A DNA stretch of 64,000 bases, from NCBI RefSeq assembly GCF_000731095.1, contig NZ_JMTZ01000010.1:1-64000 (forward strand), read 5' to 3'. Position numbers and translations under genes: made by a program. The notes under the pieces are model-generated. The model was not told the DNA's origin, did not search any database, and saw nothing but the letters and a program-made list of their open reading frames with translations. Numbering within the stretch: position 1 is the stretch's first letter; every line of letters starts with the position of its first letter. The DNA comes from Lysobacter antibioticus. Its GTDB lineage: Bacteria > Pseudomonadota > Gammaproteobacteria > Xanthomonadales > Xanthomonadaceae. This document shows, in pieces, positions 9,882 to 42,063 of this stretch.

Positions 9882-10004
9882 TCGGCCTGCCGGTTGCGGT
9901 TCGATGGCGGCCGCATGACGGTTCGCCAACGGCCGCGCCGGTGCGTGACCGCAGGCTCATTAGCCCGTGGCCGGGCAGTGTCGATCTGTATCGGACGGCC
10001 GGTG

Positions 10005-10032
10005 CCGCAACCTTCTGTTACAAAGGTTGCGG
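10005..10032. promoter_or_regulatory. Perfect hairpin CCGCAACCTT-N8-AAGGTTGCGG upstream of tatA
   Basis: Ten-base perfect inverted arms around an 8-nt loop, about 115 bp before tatA. No T-tract follows, so a regulatory role (operator or mRNA-leader hairpin) or a transcript end for the SYLF gene is possible. What binds it, if anything, cannot be told from sequence. Confidence 0.45.
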
Positions 10033-10146
10033 TATCCTCACGGCCCCGGTTGCGCGCATCGACATCGCGCCGGCCGCGGACGAGCTGATCGGACCAGCCG
10101 GCTTGAGGTTCTCATCCACTATCAACGGGTTTAACGGGACACCGCC

Positions 10147-36299: not shown

Positions 36300-36619
36300 G
36301 GGCTGTTCCTCGCTGCTGGACCCTCGCCCCAACCCCCTCAGCTTTGCACTTTCTGCGGTCGCCGCGAGCCGGAAAGGGAGTAGGGAGAGGGAGCAAAACG
36401 GGTTGGAAGACAGGCTGGGCCGGGCTGCCGCGACCGCCGGTCGGCGGGCGCCGGCTGAACCCTTTCGGCCGCGCCCGTTGCGGGCGTCCTTGCCCGTTGG
36501 AATAAACGACCCCATCACATCGCAGAGCCGTACCGGCGCGAAGGGTCCGCGCCGGGTGGCATCATTTGCTCAGGACCGGCCGCTTCGGGCCGGCCCCCGT
36601 GGTCTGTCGGAGTTTCGAA
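36300..36619. other. Gene-free region with degraded dispersed-repeat sequence
   Basis: About 320 bp without a gene. Near 36325-36400 there is CTCGCCCCAACCCCC with a distant partner AGGGAGTAGGGAGAGGGAG, which looks like an eroded copy of the CCCTC element found at 4578 and 15306. The rest probably contains the desaturase promoter. No promoter hexamer stands out. Confidence 0.45.
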
Positions 36620-37825
36620 ATGCCCGCTTCCCTGATCGATTTCCTTGCCGGCGGCCTGGTCCAGGCCGGCTTCTGGGAACTCGCCGTGTACTTCCTCGCG
36701 GTCACCCAGCTCACCATCATGTCGGTGACGCTGTACCTGCATCGCTCGATGGCGCACCGCTCGGTCGATTTTCATCCCGCGCTGGCGCACGTGTTCCGTT
36801 TCTGGACCTGGCTGACCACCTCGATGATCACCAAGGAGTGGGCGGCGATCCATCGCAAGCACCACGCCAAGTGCGAGACCGAGGAAGACCCGCACAGTCC
36901 GCAGTTCAAGGGCATCGACACGGTCATGTGGCGCGGCGTCGAGCTTTACCGCGAAGCGCGCGGCGAGCGCGAGGACATCGAGAAATACGGCAAGGGCTGC
37001 CCGGACGACTGGATCGAACGCAAGCTCTATACGCCGCATGCGACCTTCGGCCCGACCTTGCTGCTGTTCATCAGTTTCGTCCTGTTCGGCTTCGCCGGCG
37101 TGGCGATCTGGGCGCTGCAGATGGTGTGGATTCCGTTCTGGGCCGCCGGCGTGGTCAACGGCCTCGGCCATTGGTGGGGCTATCGCAATTTCGAGACCAC
37201 CGACACCGCGACCAACCTGACCCCGTGGGGCTTCTGGATCGGCGGCGAAGAGCTGCACAACAACCATCACGCCTTCCCGAGCTCGGCCAAGTTCGCCCTG
37301 CGCAAGTGGGAGTTCGACATCGGCTGGGCGGCGATTCGCGGCCTGCAGGCCGTGCGCCTGGCCAAGGTGCTGCGCGTCGCGCCGACCCTGGACGTGCGCC
37401 CGAACATCGCCATGCCGGACACCGAAACCCTGCGCGCGTTGCTGGCGATCCGCTTCCAGGCGATGACCGACTATTACCGCAGCGTGACCCTGCCGACCCT
37501 GCGCGAAGAAGCCGCGCACGCCGGCGACCGCATGCGCACCCTGCCGCGTCGTCTGCGCAAGGGCCTGGCCGACGGCGGCCGCTGGCTCGACGACGGCGCG
37601 CGTGCGCGCTTGCAGAGCTGGATCGACGAGCGGCCGCGCATGGCGACCTTGGCCGAATTCCGCCAGCGCCTGGCGCAGGTGCTCGACGACCGTTCGCACG
37701 ATGCGCAGGCCACCTTGAACCGTCTGCACGCCTGGTGCGTCGACGCCGAGGCCAGCGGCATCCAGTCGCTGCAGGCGTTCTCCGCGCGCATGAAGGGCTA
37801 CGCGCTGGCGCCGGCGCGCCACTGA
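36620..37825 (+). CDS. Fatty acid (acyl-CoA type) desaturase
   Basis: A protein of 401 aa. Membrane-bound diiron desaturases introduce a double bond into acyl chains, here likely at position 9. The three histidine boxes are present: LHRSMAH, HRKHH and the final ELHNNHH, with hydrophobic segments between them. The C-terminal ~130 residues after RVAPTLDVRPNI are soluble and helical, longer than plain desaturases but seen in related xanthomonad and pseudomonad proteins. The ATG at 36620 gives the usual short leader before the first helix. It is followed by a strong terminator. Confidence 0.92.
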   Translation: MPASLIDFLAGGLVQAGFWELAVYFLAVTQLTIMSVTLYLHRSMAHRSVDFHPALAHVFRFWTWLTTSMITKEWAAIHRKHHAKCETEEDPHSPQFKGIDTVMWRGVELYREARGEREDIEKYGKGCPDDWIERKLYTPHATFGPTLLLFISFVLFGFAGVAIWALQMVWIPFWAAGVVNGLGHWWGYRNFETTDTATNLTPWGFWIGGEELHNNHHAFPSSAKFALRKWEFDIGWAAIRGLQAVRLAKVLRVAPTLDVRPNIAMPDTETLRALLAIRFQAMTDYYRSVTLPTLREEAAHAGDRMRTLPRRLRKGLADGGRWLDDGARARLQSWIDERPRMATLAEFRQRLAQVLDDRSHDAQATLNRLHAWCVDAEASGIQSLQAFSARMKGYALAPARH

Positions 37826-37865
37826 GCGTTCGAAGCCGGTTCGCCGGTTGGGTCGTTCCAATAAG

Positions 37866-37895
37866 AACCCGCGCAGCGATGCGCGGGTTTTTTAT
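37866..37895 (+). terminator. Rho-independent terminator after the desaturase gene
   Basis: Stem AACCCGCGCA / TGCGCGGGTT with GCGA loop, followed by TTTTATT, 40 bp after the desaturase stop. Confidence 0.85.
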
Positions 37896-38271
37896 TGCCG
37901 CACATGCAGCGCGCCGTGCAGGCCGCGGCGGCTCGGCCGCCGCCCTGCGCGGCAGCCTCTTCAGGACCGCGACGCCCATCAGCATTTGCCGCCCGGCGAG
38001 GGTGTAGCGTGCGCAGGAATGGAGTCGCCGCGCCGGACCGCGTCCCGCGCCGCATAAGGAGATGCCGCATGCGCAGGGACATCGCTGCCCGAGACATCGC
38101 TGCTCGGACCATCGCCGCCGTCCGCGCGCCGCTTCCGATTCCCTCTTTCCTGCCTGCCCGTGCCGCCCTGGGCCGTACGGGATCGACGTCATTGCAAGGA
38201 CGAACCCGCCACCCGTGAACGCGCCGCGCGCCAGGGACGGGGCCGCGCTTCAAGCAAAGGAGACAGAACAG

Positions 38272-38442
38272 ATGAAGGTATTCCGTAGCAAGCGCATCAA
38301 GCTGCTCATGCTGGCCTCGTTGTTCGCTGCCGGCATCGGCTTCGGCGTGGCCCAGGCCGACAGTCCCTACCGCGAAGGCTGCCCGCCGAAGGCCGGCTGC
38401 AAGTACGGCGGCCAGCGCGTCGGTTGCTGCATGCTGCCCTGA
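38272..38442 (+). CDS. Small secreted cysteine-rich peptide, first of a tandem pair
   Basis: A precursor of 56 aa, recognised by its AAAGGAG ribosome-binding site (38256-38262) well placed before the ATG. Residues 1-29 form a Sec-type signal peptide (KVFRSKRIKLLMLASLFAAGIG, ending in AQA), giving a mature peptide of 27 residues. Four cysteines follow C-x5-C-x8-CC, and the motif GCxPKAGCx(Y/F)GGxR is shared with the next gene. Two disulfides are likely. The arrangement with a paralogue 12 bp downstream implies co-expression. I do not recognise the family; a toxin-like, antimicrobial or extracytoplasmic signalling role would be speculation. Confidence 0.8.
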   Translation: MKVFRSKRIKLLMLASLFAAGIGFGVAQADSPYREGCPPKAGCKYGGQRVGCCMLP

Positions 38443-38454
38443 GGATCGCGAACC

Positions 38455-38628
38455 ATGAGGACTTTTCGCAGCACCCGCGTGAAGTACCTGGCGATCGCCG
38501 CGCTGTTCGCCGCTTCGGTCGGTTTCGGCGCGGCCCAGGCCGACAACAAGTACGCCGAGGGCTGCGCGCCCAAGGCCGGCTGCCAGTTCGGCGGCAATCG
38601 CTTCGCCTGCTGCATGGACGATTCCTGA
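38455..38628 (+). CDS. Small secreted cysteine-rich peptide, second of a tandem pair
   Basis: A precursor of 57 aa, too short for many gene callers. The signal peptide (RTFRSTRVKYLAIAALFAASVG, ending in AQA) is clearly homologous to that of the preceding gene, as is the mature part of 28 residues with the same C-x5-C-x8-CC spacing. The GC.PKAGC..GG.R and CCM elements are conserved, while the residues between and the charged C-terminal DDS differ. Paralogous duplication with conserved cysteines and drifting loops suggests selection on the fold. Translation may be coupled through GAGGAT at the end of the first gene. Confidence 0.8.
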   Translation: MRTFRSTRVKYLAIAALFAASVGFGAAQADNKYAEGCAPKAGCQFGGNRFACCMDDS

Positions 38629-38835
38629 TCCGAGGCGGTCGATGATCCGTGCGCGACCGGCCTTGCGCCGTGCGCACCCGTGTTGCCGGCGTCGCCTGCG
38701 CGCCGCCGGCAACCCTGATCGGCCGAGTCGGCAGCGCAGGATCCCGCGATCCGCGGCCCGGACTTGCCTGGCGCCGCCGCCCGCGTCAGGCTGCGCGGCA
38801 AAGCCGCCGTTCCCGGCGCCACCCGGTTCCCGTGC

Positions 38836-39174
38836 ATGCGCCGACTGATTGCGATCGCGTTCTGTATTCCGTTCGTCTGCGCGGCGCAGCACGTCGCCTC
38901 GACCGGCGACTATTTGTCGCGCATGGACGGCGACCAGGACGGCAAGATCTCGCTGCTCGAGTACCAGGACTGGCTCAGTTACGCCTTCGACGCGATGGAC
39001 GCCAATCGCGACGGCCAGTTGGATGCGCAGGAGCAGCCCGCGAGCGGCCGCGGCGCACGCGCCGCGCTGTCGCGCGAGCAGCATCGCCTGACCCTGGCCG
39101 AGCGTTTCGGCAAACAGGACCGCAACCGCGACGGCTGGCTCGACGCGCGCGAACTGGCCTCGCCCCCGCAGTGA
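38836..39174 (+). CDS. Secreted EF-hand calcium-binding protein
   Basis: A protein of 112 aa. A signal peptide (RRLIAIAFCIPFVCAAQ) is followed by three EF-hand-type loops, DGDQDGKISLLE, DANRDGQLDAQE and DRNRDGWLDARE, spaced about 25-35 residues apart. The Asp/Asn/Gly pattern at positions 1, 3, 5 and 12 of each loop is conserved. It is presumably a periplasmic calcium-binding protein. It follows the cysteine-rich peptides after a 207-bp gap. Confidence 0.85.
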   Translation: MRRLIAIAFCIPFVCAAQHVASTGDYLSRMDGDQDGKISLLEYQDWLSYAFDAMDANRDGQLDAQEQPASGRGARAALSREQHRLTLAERFGKQDRNRDGWLDARELASPPQ

Positions 39175-39337
39175 TCGCCGGCCTGAACGGCTCGCTGGGC
39201 CGAGGCGAACGCTAAGGTCACGAGCGTCGCGTTTCCGGTGCGTTGCGCGATGCGCATCCGGCGAATTCTCCGCAGCCCGTCGCATTGCCCGGATTGCGCA
39301 ATTGCCGCCGCTGCGCCGCGCGTGATACCTAGTCGCG

Positions 39338-40156
39338 ATGAATTACGCATTGCCCCGCGGCGAACTGGATACGCTGTTCGCCGGCCCCCAATCGGTCACT
39401 TCCGAACAACGCCGCGAACTGGCCGAACTGATCGTCGAACGACTGCGCCAGGTCCATGGCGAACGCCTGCTGGCGGTCGCCATGTACGGCTCGACCGCGC
39501 GCGACGGCGACGGCCCGTACTCGGACATCGAACTGTGGGCGGTGCTCGACGACGACGCCCTCGGCGCCGACTACGACGAAACCCTGGAATGGGTGCACGG
39601 CCGCGGCAAGGCCGAGCTCAACCTGATGTCGCGCACCGCCATCGAGGCCTACGCGCGCGAAGTCGACGAAGGCTGGGCGCTCAGCCACGGCCAGTTCGTG
39701 CATGCGCGCGCGCTGTGGATCGCGCCCGACCACGGCGCCCTGGTCGAGACCTTGCGCTCGCTCGCCGCGCATCCGAACGATGAGGCGGTGGACGCGGCCT
39801 TGGCCGAAATCGTGGTCGGCGAGCTGTACGAACTGGTCGGCAAGCTGCGCAATCGCTATGCGCGCAAACCGCTGTCCCTGCTCGCCTGCGAGTTCGCCCA
39901 GCACCTGGCCTGCCTGATCGGCCTGGCCGAGCGGCACGTGTTCGCATCGAGCGGAACCATGTTCGACGAGGCCGCCGACCTGCCCGGGCCGGACGGCGCG
40001 GCGCAATTGTTCGGCCTGGTGGGCCAGGGCGATCTGCGCGACGAAGTGGTGCTGAGCATGGCCGTGGAGCGAGTCTGGACCGGCCTGGAGGAATGGGCGC
40101 ACGCCGCTTCCTTGAACGACGCGCTGGAACTGCGCTGCGCCGCGTCGGAGCGCTGA
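39338..40156 (+). CDS. Kanamycin nucleotidyltransferase-like (ANT(4')-type) protein
   Basis: A protein of 272 aa. It aligns along its whole length with the aminoglycoside O-nucleotidyltransferase ANT(4') group, which adenylylates the 4' hydroxyl of kanamycin-type drugs. The nucleotidyltransferase core is MYGSTARDGDGPYSDIELW (GST at 51-53, Asp63 and Glu65 as metal ligands), then KAELNLM, SHGQFVHARALWI and ELYELVGKLRNRYA (about 162-176), where the family has its catalytic base. Known resistance genes of this class are usually on plasmids, whereas this one has native codon usage, suggesting an old chromosomal homologue. Whether it confers resistance is unknown. Confidence 0.82.
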   Translation: MNYALPRGELDTLFAGPQSVTSEQRRELAELIVERLRQVHGERLLAVAMYGSTARDGDGPYSDIELWAVLDDDALGADYDETLEWVHGRGKAELNLMSRTAIEAYAREVDEGWALSHGQFVHARALWIAPDHGALVETLRSLAAHPNDEAVDAALAEIVVGELYELVGKLRNRYARKPLSLLACEFAQHLACLIGLAERHVFASSGTMFDEAADLPGPDGAAQLFGLVGQGDLRDEVVLSMAVERVWTGLEEWAHAASLNDALELRCAASER

Positions 40157-40318: not shown

Positions 40319-41317
40319 ATGGGCCGACTGCTGCACCCTTGGTTCGCCGAAGCGCGCCTCGTCGCCGCGCGCGGCGGCGCATGGCGACGCGGCCGGACCC
40401 TGTCGACGGCCGCCGCCGCGGCGATCGTCTTGCCGTTGCTGCTGCGTGGCTGGGGGGGCGATGCCGCGGCCCTGGCCGAGGCCCTGCCGCGCCTGATCGA
40501 ACGTTTGCCGCTGCCGTTCGGTCTGCTCGCCATCGCTACGGCGTATGCGGTCGCGCGCGGACGCTCGATCGCGCTCGATGAGTACCTGCGCCTGGGGTGG
40601 TGGGCGGCGGCGCCGATCGAGCCGTCGCGGGCCACGCGCAGCCTGGTCTTGCTGGCCGGCCTGGCGACGCTGGCGGCGATGGCATTCGCGGCGACCGTGC
40701 TCGCCGCTTGCGGTGGCGACCGCGCGAGCCTGCGCGCCGCCTACTGGGTCGTCGACGGCGGGCTCGCGCTCGGCGCCGTGCTGGGCCTGTTCGCGGCCCT
40801 GCGCCATCGCCGCCATCCGGCGCAGCGTTTGCGCGAAGGCGCGCGCCTGCCGGTGTTCGGCCTGGCCTGGCTCGACGATGCGCGACTGCCGCACCTCAGC
40901 GACTGGCAACGGCGCGAAGGCGTGTTGCGTTGGCGCCGTGGCGGTCACGCCTGGATGATCGGCGCGGTGCTGTTCGGCCTGCCGAGTTCGACCGGTGCGA
41001 GCAGCGGCATCGGCGTGTTGCTGATCGCCATCGCGCTGGCCTGGTTCAGTCTGATCCTGCAAGCCTGCGTCGCCGCGACGCTCGATGCCGACGCCTTGCT
41101 GGCGAGCACGCCGCGCGCGCCGCATCGACTGGCGCAGGCGGCCTGGCGGTATCCGGCCTTCGCCTTGCTCTGCGCCCTGGCATTCGCGAGCGTCGGTGCC
41201 GCGCTGTTGGCGCTGACCTGGCGTGCTGCGCCGGTATTGCTCGCGATTGTGCTCATCCTTTCATCGCCGGCGCTGCTTGCGCTGCGTCCCCTCCTTCACC
41301 GGCCTTTGTCGCGATGA
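40319..41317 (+). CDS. ABC-type exporter membrane protein
   Basis: A protein of 332 aa with about seven hydrophobic segments: residues 33-47, 66-85, 104-132, 142-160, 228-262, 290-312 and 313-328. It has no other motif. It overlaps the ATP-binding protein gene in an ATGA arrangement, so the two very likely form one ABC transporter. Substrate unknown. The start at 40319 precedes the first charged N-terminal stretch; no signal peptide is needed. Confidence 0.78.
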   Translation: MGRLLHPWFAEARLVAARGGAWRRGRTLSTAAAAAIVLPLLLRGWGGDAAALAEALPRLIERLPLPFGLLAIATAYAVARGRSIALDEYLRLGWWAAAPIEPSRATRSLVLLAGLATLAAMAFAATVLAACGGDRASLRAAYWVVDGGLALGAVLGLFAALRHRRHPAQRLREGARLPVFGLAWLDDARLPHLSDWQRREGVLRWRRGGHAWMIGAVLFGLPSSTGASSGIGVLLIAIALAWFSLILQACVAATLDADALLASTPRAPHRLAQAAWRYPAFALLCALAFASVGAALLALTWRAAPVLLAIVLILSSPALLALRPLLHRPLSR

Positions 41318-42063
41318 CCGTCCTGCTCGAACTCGAAGGCCTGCAGCACCGCTATGACGAGCACGCGGTGCTGCACGGCATCGATCTGCGCTTGCAGGCT
41401 GGCGAATTCGCCGCGCTGATCGGTCCGAACGGTTCCGGCAAGACCACCCTGCTGCATTGCCTGGCCGGGCTGCAGCGGGCGAGCGCGGGGCGCGTGTTGA
41501 TCGGCGGCCACGACCTCGCCCGCGCACCGCTGCAGGCGCGGCGCCTGCTCGGCTTCGCAGTCGACCCGGCGCGTCTGCCGCCGTTGTTGACCGGTCGCGA
41601 ATGCCTGCGTCTGTTCGCCGGTACGCGCGAGCTCAGCGAAATTCCCGCGCCGACGCTGGCCCTCGCCGAGATCCTGGCGCTGGCGCCGATGCTGGATCGC
41701 CGCATCGGCCAGTACTCGCTCGGCACCCGCCAGAAACTGGCGATCGCGCTGGGTCTGCTCGGTGAGCCGCCCTTGCTGGTGCTCGACGAACCGCTCAACG
41801 GCCTCGACCCGCTCAGCGCCTACGCACTCAAGCGCCATCTGCAGCAGCTAGCTCACGATCGCGGCACCGCCGTGTTGCTGGCGACCCATTCGCTCGACGT
41901 CGCCGAGCGCTTCATCAGCCGCGCGCTGTTGCTGATGGACGGCCGTTTGCGTCGCGATTGGCCGGCCGGCGAGCTCGATGCGATCCGCGCCGACCCGCAG
42001 CGGTCGCTGGAGCAGTCGATGGTCGAGGCCTTGGCGGACGATCGGCCGGCGGATGCGGAGTAG
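41314..42063 (+). CDS. ABC transporter ATP-binding protein
   Basis: A protein of 249 aa. Walker A GPNGSGKTT is at residues 37-45, the signature is the divergent YSLGTRQKL (about 130-138), Walker B is LLVLDEP and the H-loop is ATHSLD. The start ATG overlaps the stop of the membrane partner. The C-terminal ADDRPADAE is acidic. A single-domain ATPase with one membrane protein implies a small exporter; the substrate cannot be told. Confidence 0.9.
   Translation: MTVLLELEGLQHRYDEHAVLHGIDLRLQAGEFAALIGPNGSGKTTLLHCLAGLQRASAGRVLIGGHDLARAPLQARRLLGFAVDPARLPPLLTGRECLRLFAGTRELSEIPAPTLALAEILALAPMLDRRIGQYSLGTRQKLAIALGLLGEPPLLVLDEPLNGLDPLSAYALKRHLQQLAHDRGTAVLLATHSLDVAERFISRALLLMDGRLRRDWPAGELDAIRADPQRSLEQSMVEALADDRPADAE

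Follow-up and report, generated by a model that had tools for sequence, protein, structure and literature searches.

The window analyzed here is a stretch of 64,000 nucleotides of Lysobacter antibioticus DNA (contig NZ_JMTZ01000010.1, positions 1 to 64,000). It contains two tiny genes in tandem, separated by 12 bases, and their features are shown in Table 1. A first-pass annotation made from the sequence had described adjacent genes of 56 and 57 codons encoding homologous precursors with the same cysteine spacing, a shared GCxPKAGC core, and mature parts of 27–28 residues. The two genes were found where it placed them, the core is common to both peptides, and the homology was confirmed (61% identity between the precursors). 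Both precursors have a leader that reads as Sec-like, with a basic n-region, a hydrophobic core, and an AQA end, and the mature lengths assume a cut after AQA.

Table 1. Features of the peptide locus, in window coordinates. A2 is the 22-row protein profile described in the text
Feature	Position	Strand	Description
Upstream flanking gene	36620..37825	+	Presumably desaturase-like, by histidine boxes; adjoins the peptide locus in 17/17 loci of this arrangement
Gap where 5 sister Lysobacter loci hold a thioredoxin-like gene	37826..38271	.	From synteny; no remnant detected
Intrinsic-terminator-like hairpin and T run after the upstream gene	37863..37892	+	Fold -21.8 kcal/mol, z -5.1
Shine-Dalgarno-like AAGGAGA of gene 1	38257..38263	+	From sequence
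Peptide gene 1	38272..38442	+	56-aa precursor; mature part with 4 Cys; A2 match of 99 bits in its own genome
Putative Sec-type leader, peptide 1	38272..38358	+	Residues 1–29, end GFGVAQA; cut site predicted by the AxA rule
Predicted mature part, peptide 1	38359..38439	+	27 aa, C-x5-C-x8-CC
Shine-Dalgarno-like GAGGA of gene 2	38441..38445	+	Overlaps the stop codon of gene 1
Peptide gene 2	38455..38628	+	Precursor of 57 aa; 4 Cys; A2 match of 95.6 bits; ten 57-aa orthologues under purifying selection
Putative Sec-type leader, peptide 2	38455..38541	+	Residues 1–29, end GFGAAQA; cleavage predicted from sequence
Predicted mature part, peptide 2	38542..38625	+	28 aa, C-x5-C-x8-CC
Downstream flanking gene	38836..39174	+	Which we take to be EF-hand-like, by DxDxDG repeats; adjoins the peptide locus in 17/17 loci of this arrangement

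The position of the second Shine-Dalgarno-like motif over the stop codon of gene 1 suggests that a single message serves both peptides. In 7 of 7 aligned upstream regions, a GGAGA-like motif lies ahead of the peptide start. Because a strong hairpin follows the upstream gene, the pair is probably a transcription unit of its own; this hairpin was missed by a consensus scan yet folds well. No sigma-70-like promoter for the peptide pair was found by consensus scan. The structure predicted for peptide 2 (pLDDT 64.6, pTM 0.25) was too weak for use, and no close solved structure was found for the peptides.

The profile search across relatives that the first-pass annotation had proposed did reveal homologues. 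The A2 profile, used against six-frame translations, matched 19 of the 20 same-genus genomes drawn, all 19 at E ≤ 3e-9 (among 199 relatives), and in two of the 19 (G309 and G138) the match lies at another locus. At E ≤ 0.1, 63 of the 199 genomes matched, the near-limit ones looking like chance (leader-only matches, long frames). The F, A, and Q positions of the peptide 1 leader are conserved in the A2 alignment. With a single window peptide as query, 23 of 395 family genomes had matches at E ≤ 0.01; L. antibioticus and Lysobacter enzymogenes are among the named organisms with matches at the peptide locus. When 274 genomes of the class, at least three of them from the same family, were searched with a 4-Cys profile (E ≤ 0.001), only the genome of origin matched. 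A match in Halothiobacillaceae (L067; tblastn E 2e-5, 26 bits inside a longer frame) is doubtful, and the outside-family matches in G446 and G459 were discarded as weak, the one in G446 (L190) being a longer protein of another kind. A mobile or phage origin was also rejected, since two scans confirmed no relative in viral contigs. One 6-Cys and one 4-Cys query found no relative in 72,556 plasmid records.

Ten 57-aa orthologues had an uncorrected pN/pS of 0.56 overall, 0.48 in the mature part and 0.64 in the leader; for three 56-aa orthologues, two of which are the same protein, the uncorrected value was 0.41. These counts indicate that purifying selection acts on the mature part, which tolerates somewhat less change than the leader; nothing here points to loops that evolve fast. 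The earlier impression of a conserved framework with a varying surface is weakly true at most, given this purifying selection. The homologues and the selection together rule out antisense or chance ORFs.

The suggestion that the peptides belong to no described family agreed with our searches, in which the window pair had no Pfam or NCBIfam match. The same collections, searched with 22 and 7 relatives, gave scattered weak hits (best E 0.014), none common to more than four members. Judged by profile matches, the window peptides make up the 4-Cys branch of a peptide family of Xanthomonadaceae, which also has a 6-Cys branch with the pattern C-x(2–5)-C-x3-C-x(11–17)-C-x-CC. At E ≤ 0.001 a first 6-Cys profile had matches in 55 of the 297 family genomes, a figure to which the 4-Cys branch contributes some weak cross-matches. 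A second 6-Cys profile had matches in 16 of the 20 genomes from genus g7 and in 31 of the 35 from genus g17. Several genera have in common the 6-Cys end GELGPGGPG...CYCCG, and loci of g28, g14, and g29 hold up to three peptide copies. The genome of the window strain carries a 6-Cys member on contig C57, and contig C30 has another that is more distant. Scores between the branches are modest (about 15–26 bits), and both have a leader with F-G-x-x-Q near its end. This leader, the Cys-rich end and the shared partner described below, taken together, make a common origin of the branches likely.

Some members stand apart. The C30 peptide (L131 6842–7036) is a distant 6-Cys relative of 64 aa that ends in CRCCD, and copies like it were seen in other Lysobacter genomes (L145, L147, L148, and L192). 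A third Lysobacter subfamily of FQTT-type peptides (L079–L083, near 9.9–10.1 kb) has six cysteines in the arrangement C-x6-C-x-C-x3-C-x8-CC (x7 in L082) and occupies other loci.

Cysteine number is almost strictly even. When the count starts at residue 29, 4 or 6 Cys are present in 82 of the 83 distinct precursors; the sole odd count belongs to a degenerate copy (L084, near 9886–10053) with five Cys and no normal start codon. The Cys-rich end closes with CC in all 83, and with CxCC in the 6-Cys-profile group. Within the 4-Cys-profile group (37 precursors), 7 have both of the cysteines that stand first and third in the 6-Cys form and 30 have neither, a paired presence or absence that may reflect one event. 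GCPCKPGC-type 6-Cys peptides differ from 4-Cys members by these two cysteines, which come and go together, as a single shared disulfide would predict. The covariation and the even counts make full disulfide pairing likely, and with full pairing a dedicated oxidase or isomerase would be the simplest role for a partner.

Charge was also compared. The net mature charge, counted by eye, is about +2 for peptide 1 and about -1 for peptide 2 with D30 kept; if D30 is assigned to the leader, the values are +3 (via the identical copy L068) and 0. The branch means are +0.2 (4-Cys, 36 precursors) and -2.1 (6-Cys, 41 precursors). The charge and Cys-framework sets omit precursors shorter than 50 residues, which are two pieces of the broken locus L117 of genome G240. 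The net positive mature charge expected of a cationic antimicrobial was not found across the window pair and the family groups.

Loci in several genera have, immediately before the peptide gene, a gene for a protein of ~190–215 residues with a thioredoxin fold and, by eye, an N-terminal hydrophobic stretch. The first-pass annotation could not have seen this partner because its gene is absent from the window locus. We built a profile (A4) from nine peptide-linked copies, and all nine match Redoxin/AhpC-TSA models at E ≤ 0.01; the first member exceeds the gathering thresholds of PF08534 (41.5 vs. 26.6 bits) and PF00578 (30.9 vs. 26 bits). The nearest models are ResA, StoA, and MauD, for which the same member stays below the NCBIfam cut-offs (MauD 35.8 of 188.6, ResA 33 of 170, StoA 27.5 of 210 bits). 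A CxxC motif was present in 42/42 linked copies, a count that is no rate because these loci were hand-chosen and all linked. The motif varies with peptide class: CPVC or CPIC accompanies GCPxKPGC-type peptides, CPHC or CPYC most CYCC peptides, and CRYC, CKFC, or CRFC is found in genus g29. The protein appears to be membrane-anchored and periplasmic.

At E ≤ 1e-40 the A4 profile matched at 47 places, spread over 42 of the 247 family genomes, and 44 of the 47 have a family peptide on the same strand no more than 0.9 kb downstream, a proportion that favours copies like the nine in the profile and that includes one approximate coordinate (G245). The exceptions are two g28 genomes, G070 and G144, with peptides and thioredoxin on different contigs, and G099, where a thioredoxin is present and no peptide was found nearby. 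In the reverse direction, an uneven sample of 87 distinct peptide genes or pieces included 53 with a thioredoxin gene no more than 0.7 kb upstream (12/37 in the 4-Cys-profile group and 41/50 in the 6-Cys-profile group). At several loci the two genes overlap by 4 bases. No thioredoxin gene was found in the fetched stretches around the C30-type or the FQTT-type 6-Cys peptides. In one locus, L117, the thioredoxin and peptide frames are both interrupted, as in a decaying module.

A tree of the 42 linked thioredoxins chosen from these loci contained one split by peptide class (support 93/82). Six genomes carry both modules, and their two thioredoxins, 34–43% identical, group by peptide class rather than by genome; three Lysobacter thioredoxins of the 4-Cys class are 49–53% identical to the copy of another genus, G048. 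Thioredoxin and peptide distances correlated with r 0.89 over 37 pairs (the 42 loci with identical-peptide pairs merged to one), relatedness not being controlled. This co-divergence could be plain co-inheritance of neighbours. In the loci read, other neighbours mostly differ between genera. The 6-Cys modules of one g7 genome (L191 7977–10664) and one g17 genome (L140 8561–11207) lie near the same sugar-catabolism-like run, by eye aldo/keto reductase-, amidohydrolase-, and SDR-like, a place common to both genera.

At the window locus the partner is absent. Window positions 36501–39500 were searched for a remnant by tblastn, with 12 query frames taken one per locus (11 of them thioredoxin-like proteins, the other a C-terminal piece), and no hit had an E below 0.2. 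Synteny among 17 Lysobacter loci showed the order flank, thioredoxin, single peptide, flank in five, and flank, peptide(s), flank in 12, including the window. The tandem pair occurs in 8 of the 17, all among the 12 without thioredoxin. G048 carries an overlapping thioredoxin–peptide pair, and its thioredoxin is sister to the Lysobacter ones of the window-type locus; on these grounds, loss in the window lineage would be more economical than gain. The genome of origin has one family thioredoxin (225.8 bits; next match 64.8), beside the 6-Cys peptide on contig C57, and DsbB is present. Genomes G273 and G293 have 4-Cys peptides at this locus and no A4 match at E ≤ 1e-20, so these peptides can persist without the thioredoxin. 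Beyond the peptide locus, at window positions 40319–42063, we noted by eye a membrane protein gene and an ABC-type ATPase gene, which occur in the 12 thioredoxin-less loci and were not seen in the fetched stretches of the other five; this may only reflect lineage.

The reading we prefer, with a probability of roughly 0.57, is that these genes encode exported, disulfide-bonded mini-peptides of a family that evolved with a dedicated folding partner. The precursors would be exported through Sec and cut to peptides of 27–28 residues, each with two disulfides. The ancestral unit was most likely a two-gene operon, in which the gene for a membrane-anchored periplasmic thioredoxin-like protein was followed by one, two, or three peptide genes. 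The most likely task of the thioredoxin is to form or repair the disulfides in its own peptide on exit from the Sec channel, each peptide class travelling with its own thioredoxin class. The window pair would then be a lineage-specific duplication inside the 4-Cys/6-Cys family of Xanthomonadaceae, in a lineage that probably lost the thioredoxin gene from the locus. Its peptides probably now depend for folding on the general DsbA/DsbB route or on the family thioredoxin encoded elsewhere in the genome, and once folded they may have their site of action in the cell envelope or beyond it. The role of a secreted ligand or effector has a slight edge over that of a weapon: the duplications and divergence in Lysobacter, g14, g28, and g29 favour the former, and the neutral-to-acidic mature parts, the lack of a recognised immunity-like neighbour, and the conservation across genera disfavour a classical weapon. 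More tentatively, and at somewhat less than even odds, Xanthomonadaceae would possess a two-gene module not described before, with a membrane-tethered thioredoxin that serves one exported mini-peptide and classes that change in step, from which some lineages, that of the window included, shed the thioredoxin and duplicated the peptide to yield autonomous, disulfide-stabilised extracellular ligands or effectors.

Other roles could be proposed for such a pair. If the thioredoxin acted as a reductant with the peptide as redox partner, the two would form a redox-homeostasis couple that relays electrons in the periplasm or keeps thiols reduced. ResA and DsbE-type proteins are reductants, and both are among the best profile matches of the partner; the presence of the 6-Cys peptide in most g7 and g17 genomes is also what a housekeeping function would predict. 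Such a couple is a serious rival, though unlikely: G273 and G293 keep peptides in the absence of the thioredoxin, the peptides are duplicated in the window lineage, cysteine numbers change in pairs, and the CPHC and CPYC active sites are of the kind found in DsbA and DsbG. Clustered cysteines, CC in every precursor and CxCC in the 6-Cys-profile group, could instead be periplasmic ligands of a soft metal such as Cu(I), with the thioredoxin keeping them reduced, and dedicated thioredoxin-like proteins do occur in copper-site assembly. Against this, the paired cysteine change and the almost strictly even count point to disulfides, and the loci read showed no recognisable metal-transport neighbour, which makes metal handling very unlikely.

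The first-pass annotation had offered antimicrobial, predation-related, and signalling roles as options. The peptides could indeed be bacteriocin- or defensin-like weapons, secreted by a lytic soil genus for antimicrobial action or predation. They are tiny, exported-looking, Cys-rich, tandem duplicated, and divergent in sequence, with the multiple copies of g28, g14, and g29; the ABC-type ATPase and membrane protein near the 12 thioredoxin-less loci would suit this role, and the 6-Cys profile touches the defensin ARD1 in PDB, at E 0.66 only. We consider it quite unlikely all the same: the branch mean charges, neutral to acidic, do not favour a classical cationic antimicrobial, the loci read by eye revealed no immunity-like gene as a shared neighbour, several genera hold the same 6-Cys end, and the mature part is under purifying selection. 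Bacterial cis-defensins comprise five classes with the pattern C-x(2,18)-C-x3-C-x(2,12)-C-x(4,17)-C-x-C, and 55 of 74 sequences come from deltaproteobacteria (PMC11561630, section 6). They too are tiny and Cys-rich, and they are exported, as our peptides are predicted to be; the 6-Cys branch shares the C-x3-C and C-x-C spacings of the pattern. The full pattern, in the form stated there, fits none of the 83 distinct precursors, and membership was rejected; the words "Lysobacter" and "Xanthomon" are absent from the main text of the paper (PMC11561630).

Returning to a dedicated folding partner, we found no published description of the peptide family or of its pairing with a thioredoxin in the open-licence literature. 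The operon treated in PMC12637426 is an unrelated one. If our reading is true, the many small, class-matched pairs would offer a way to learn how an enzyme recognises a client of fewer than 45 residues, and what follows the loss of that enzyme, as in the window. It would also concern a conserved, exported-looking peptide, for which no family model was found, in most species genomes of g7 and g17, both further genera of Xanthomonadaceae, and in the lytic genus Lysobacter.

Sublancin-type bacteriocins are small two-disulfide peptides with a double-glycine leader and a gene for the thiol oxidoreductase BdbB in their operon. Our modules resemble them in joining a small, probably disulfide-bonded peptide to a thiol oxidoreductase gene, but the leaders here look Sec-type, and no glycosyltransferase, exporter, or immunity gene was recognised by eye beside the modules read. 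ResA and StoA have in common with the partner the Redoxin/AhpC-TSA fold, the CxxC, and the N-terminal hydrophobic stretch; all nine A4 members match both models, and the solved structures nearest in sequence include ResA chains. The partner differs in scoring below their curated cut-offs and in being genetically tied to a peptide. To our knowledge, dedicated thioredoxin–client pairs are few. MauD pairs with methylamine dehydrogenase, and DsbL/DsbI with AssT; in both, as would be the case in our modules, a thioredoxin-fold oxidoreductase is encoded near the exported, Cys-containing substrate that it serves. The MauD model matches seven of the nine A4 members, the first one far below its cut-off as noted above, and no DsbI- or MauE-like membrane partner was recognised by eye as a shared neighbour in the loci read. 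The kind is already known, and the client family and its pairing are apparently undescribed. Unlike the clients of MauD and DsbL, which are enzymes, the presumed client here is a peptide of roughly 25–45 residues.
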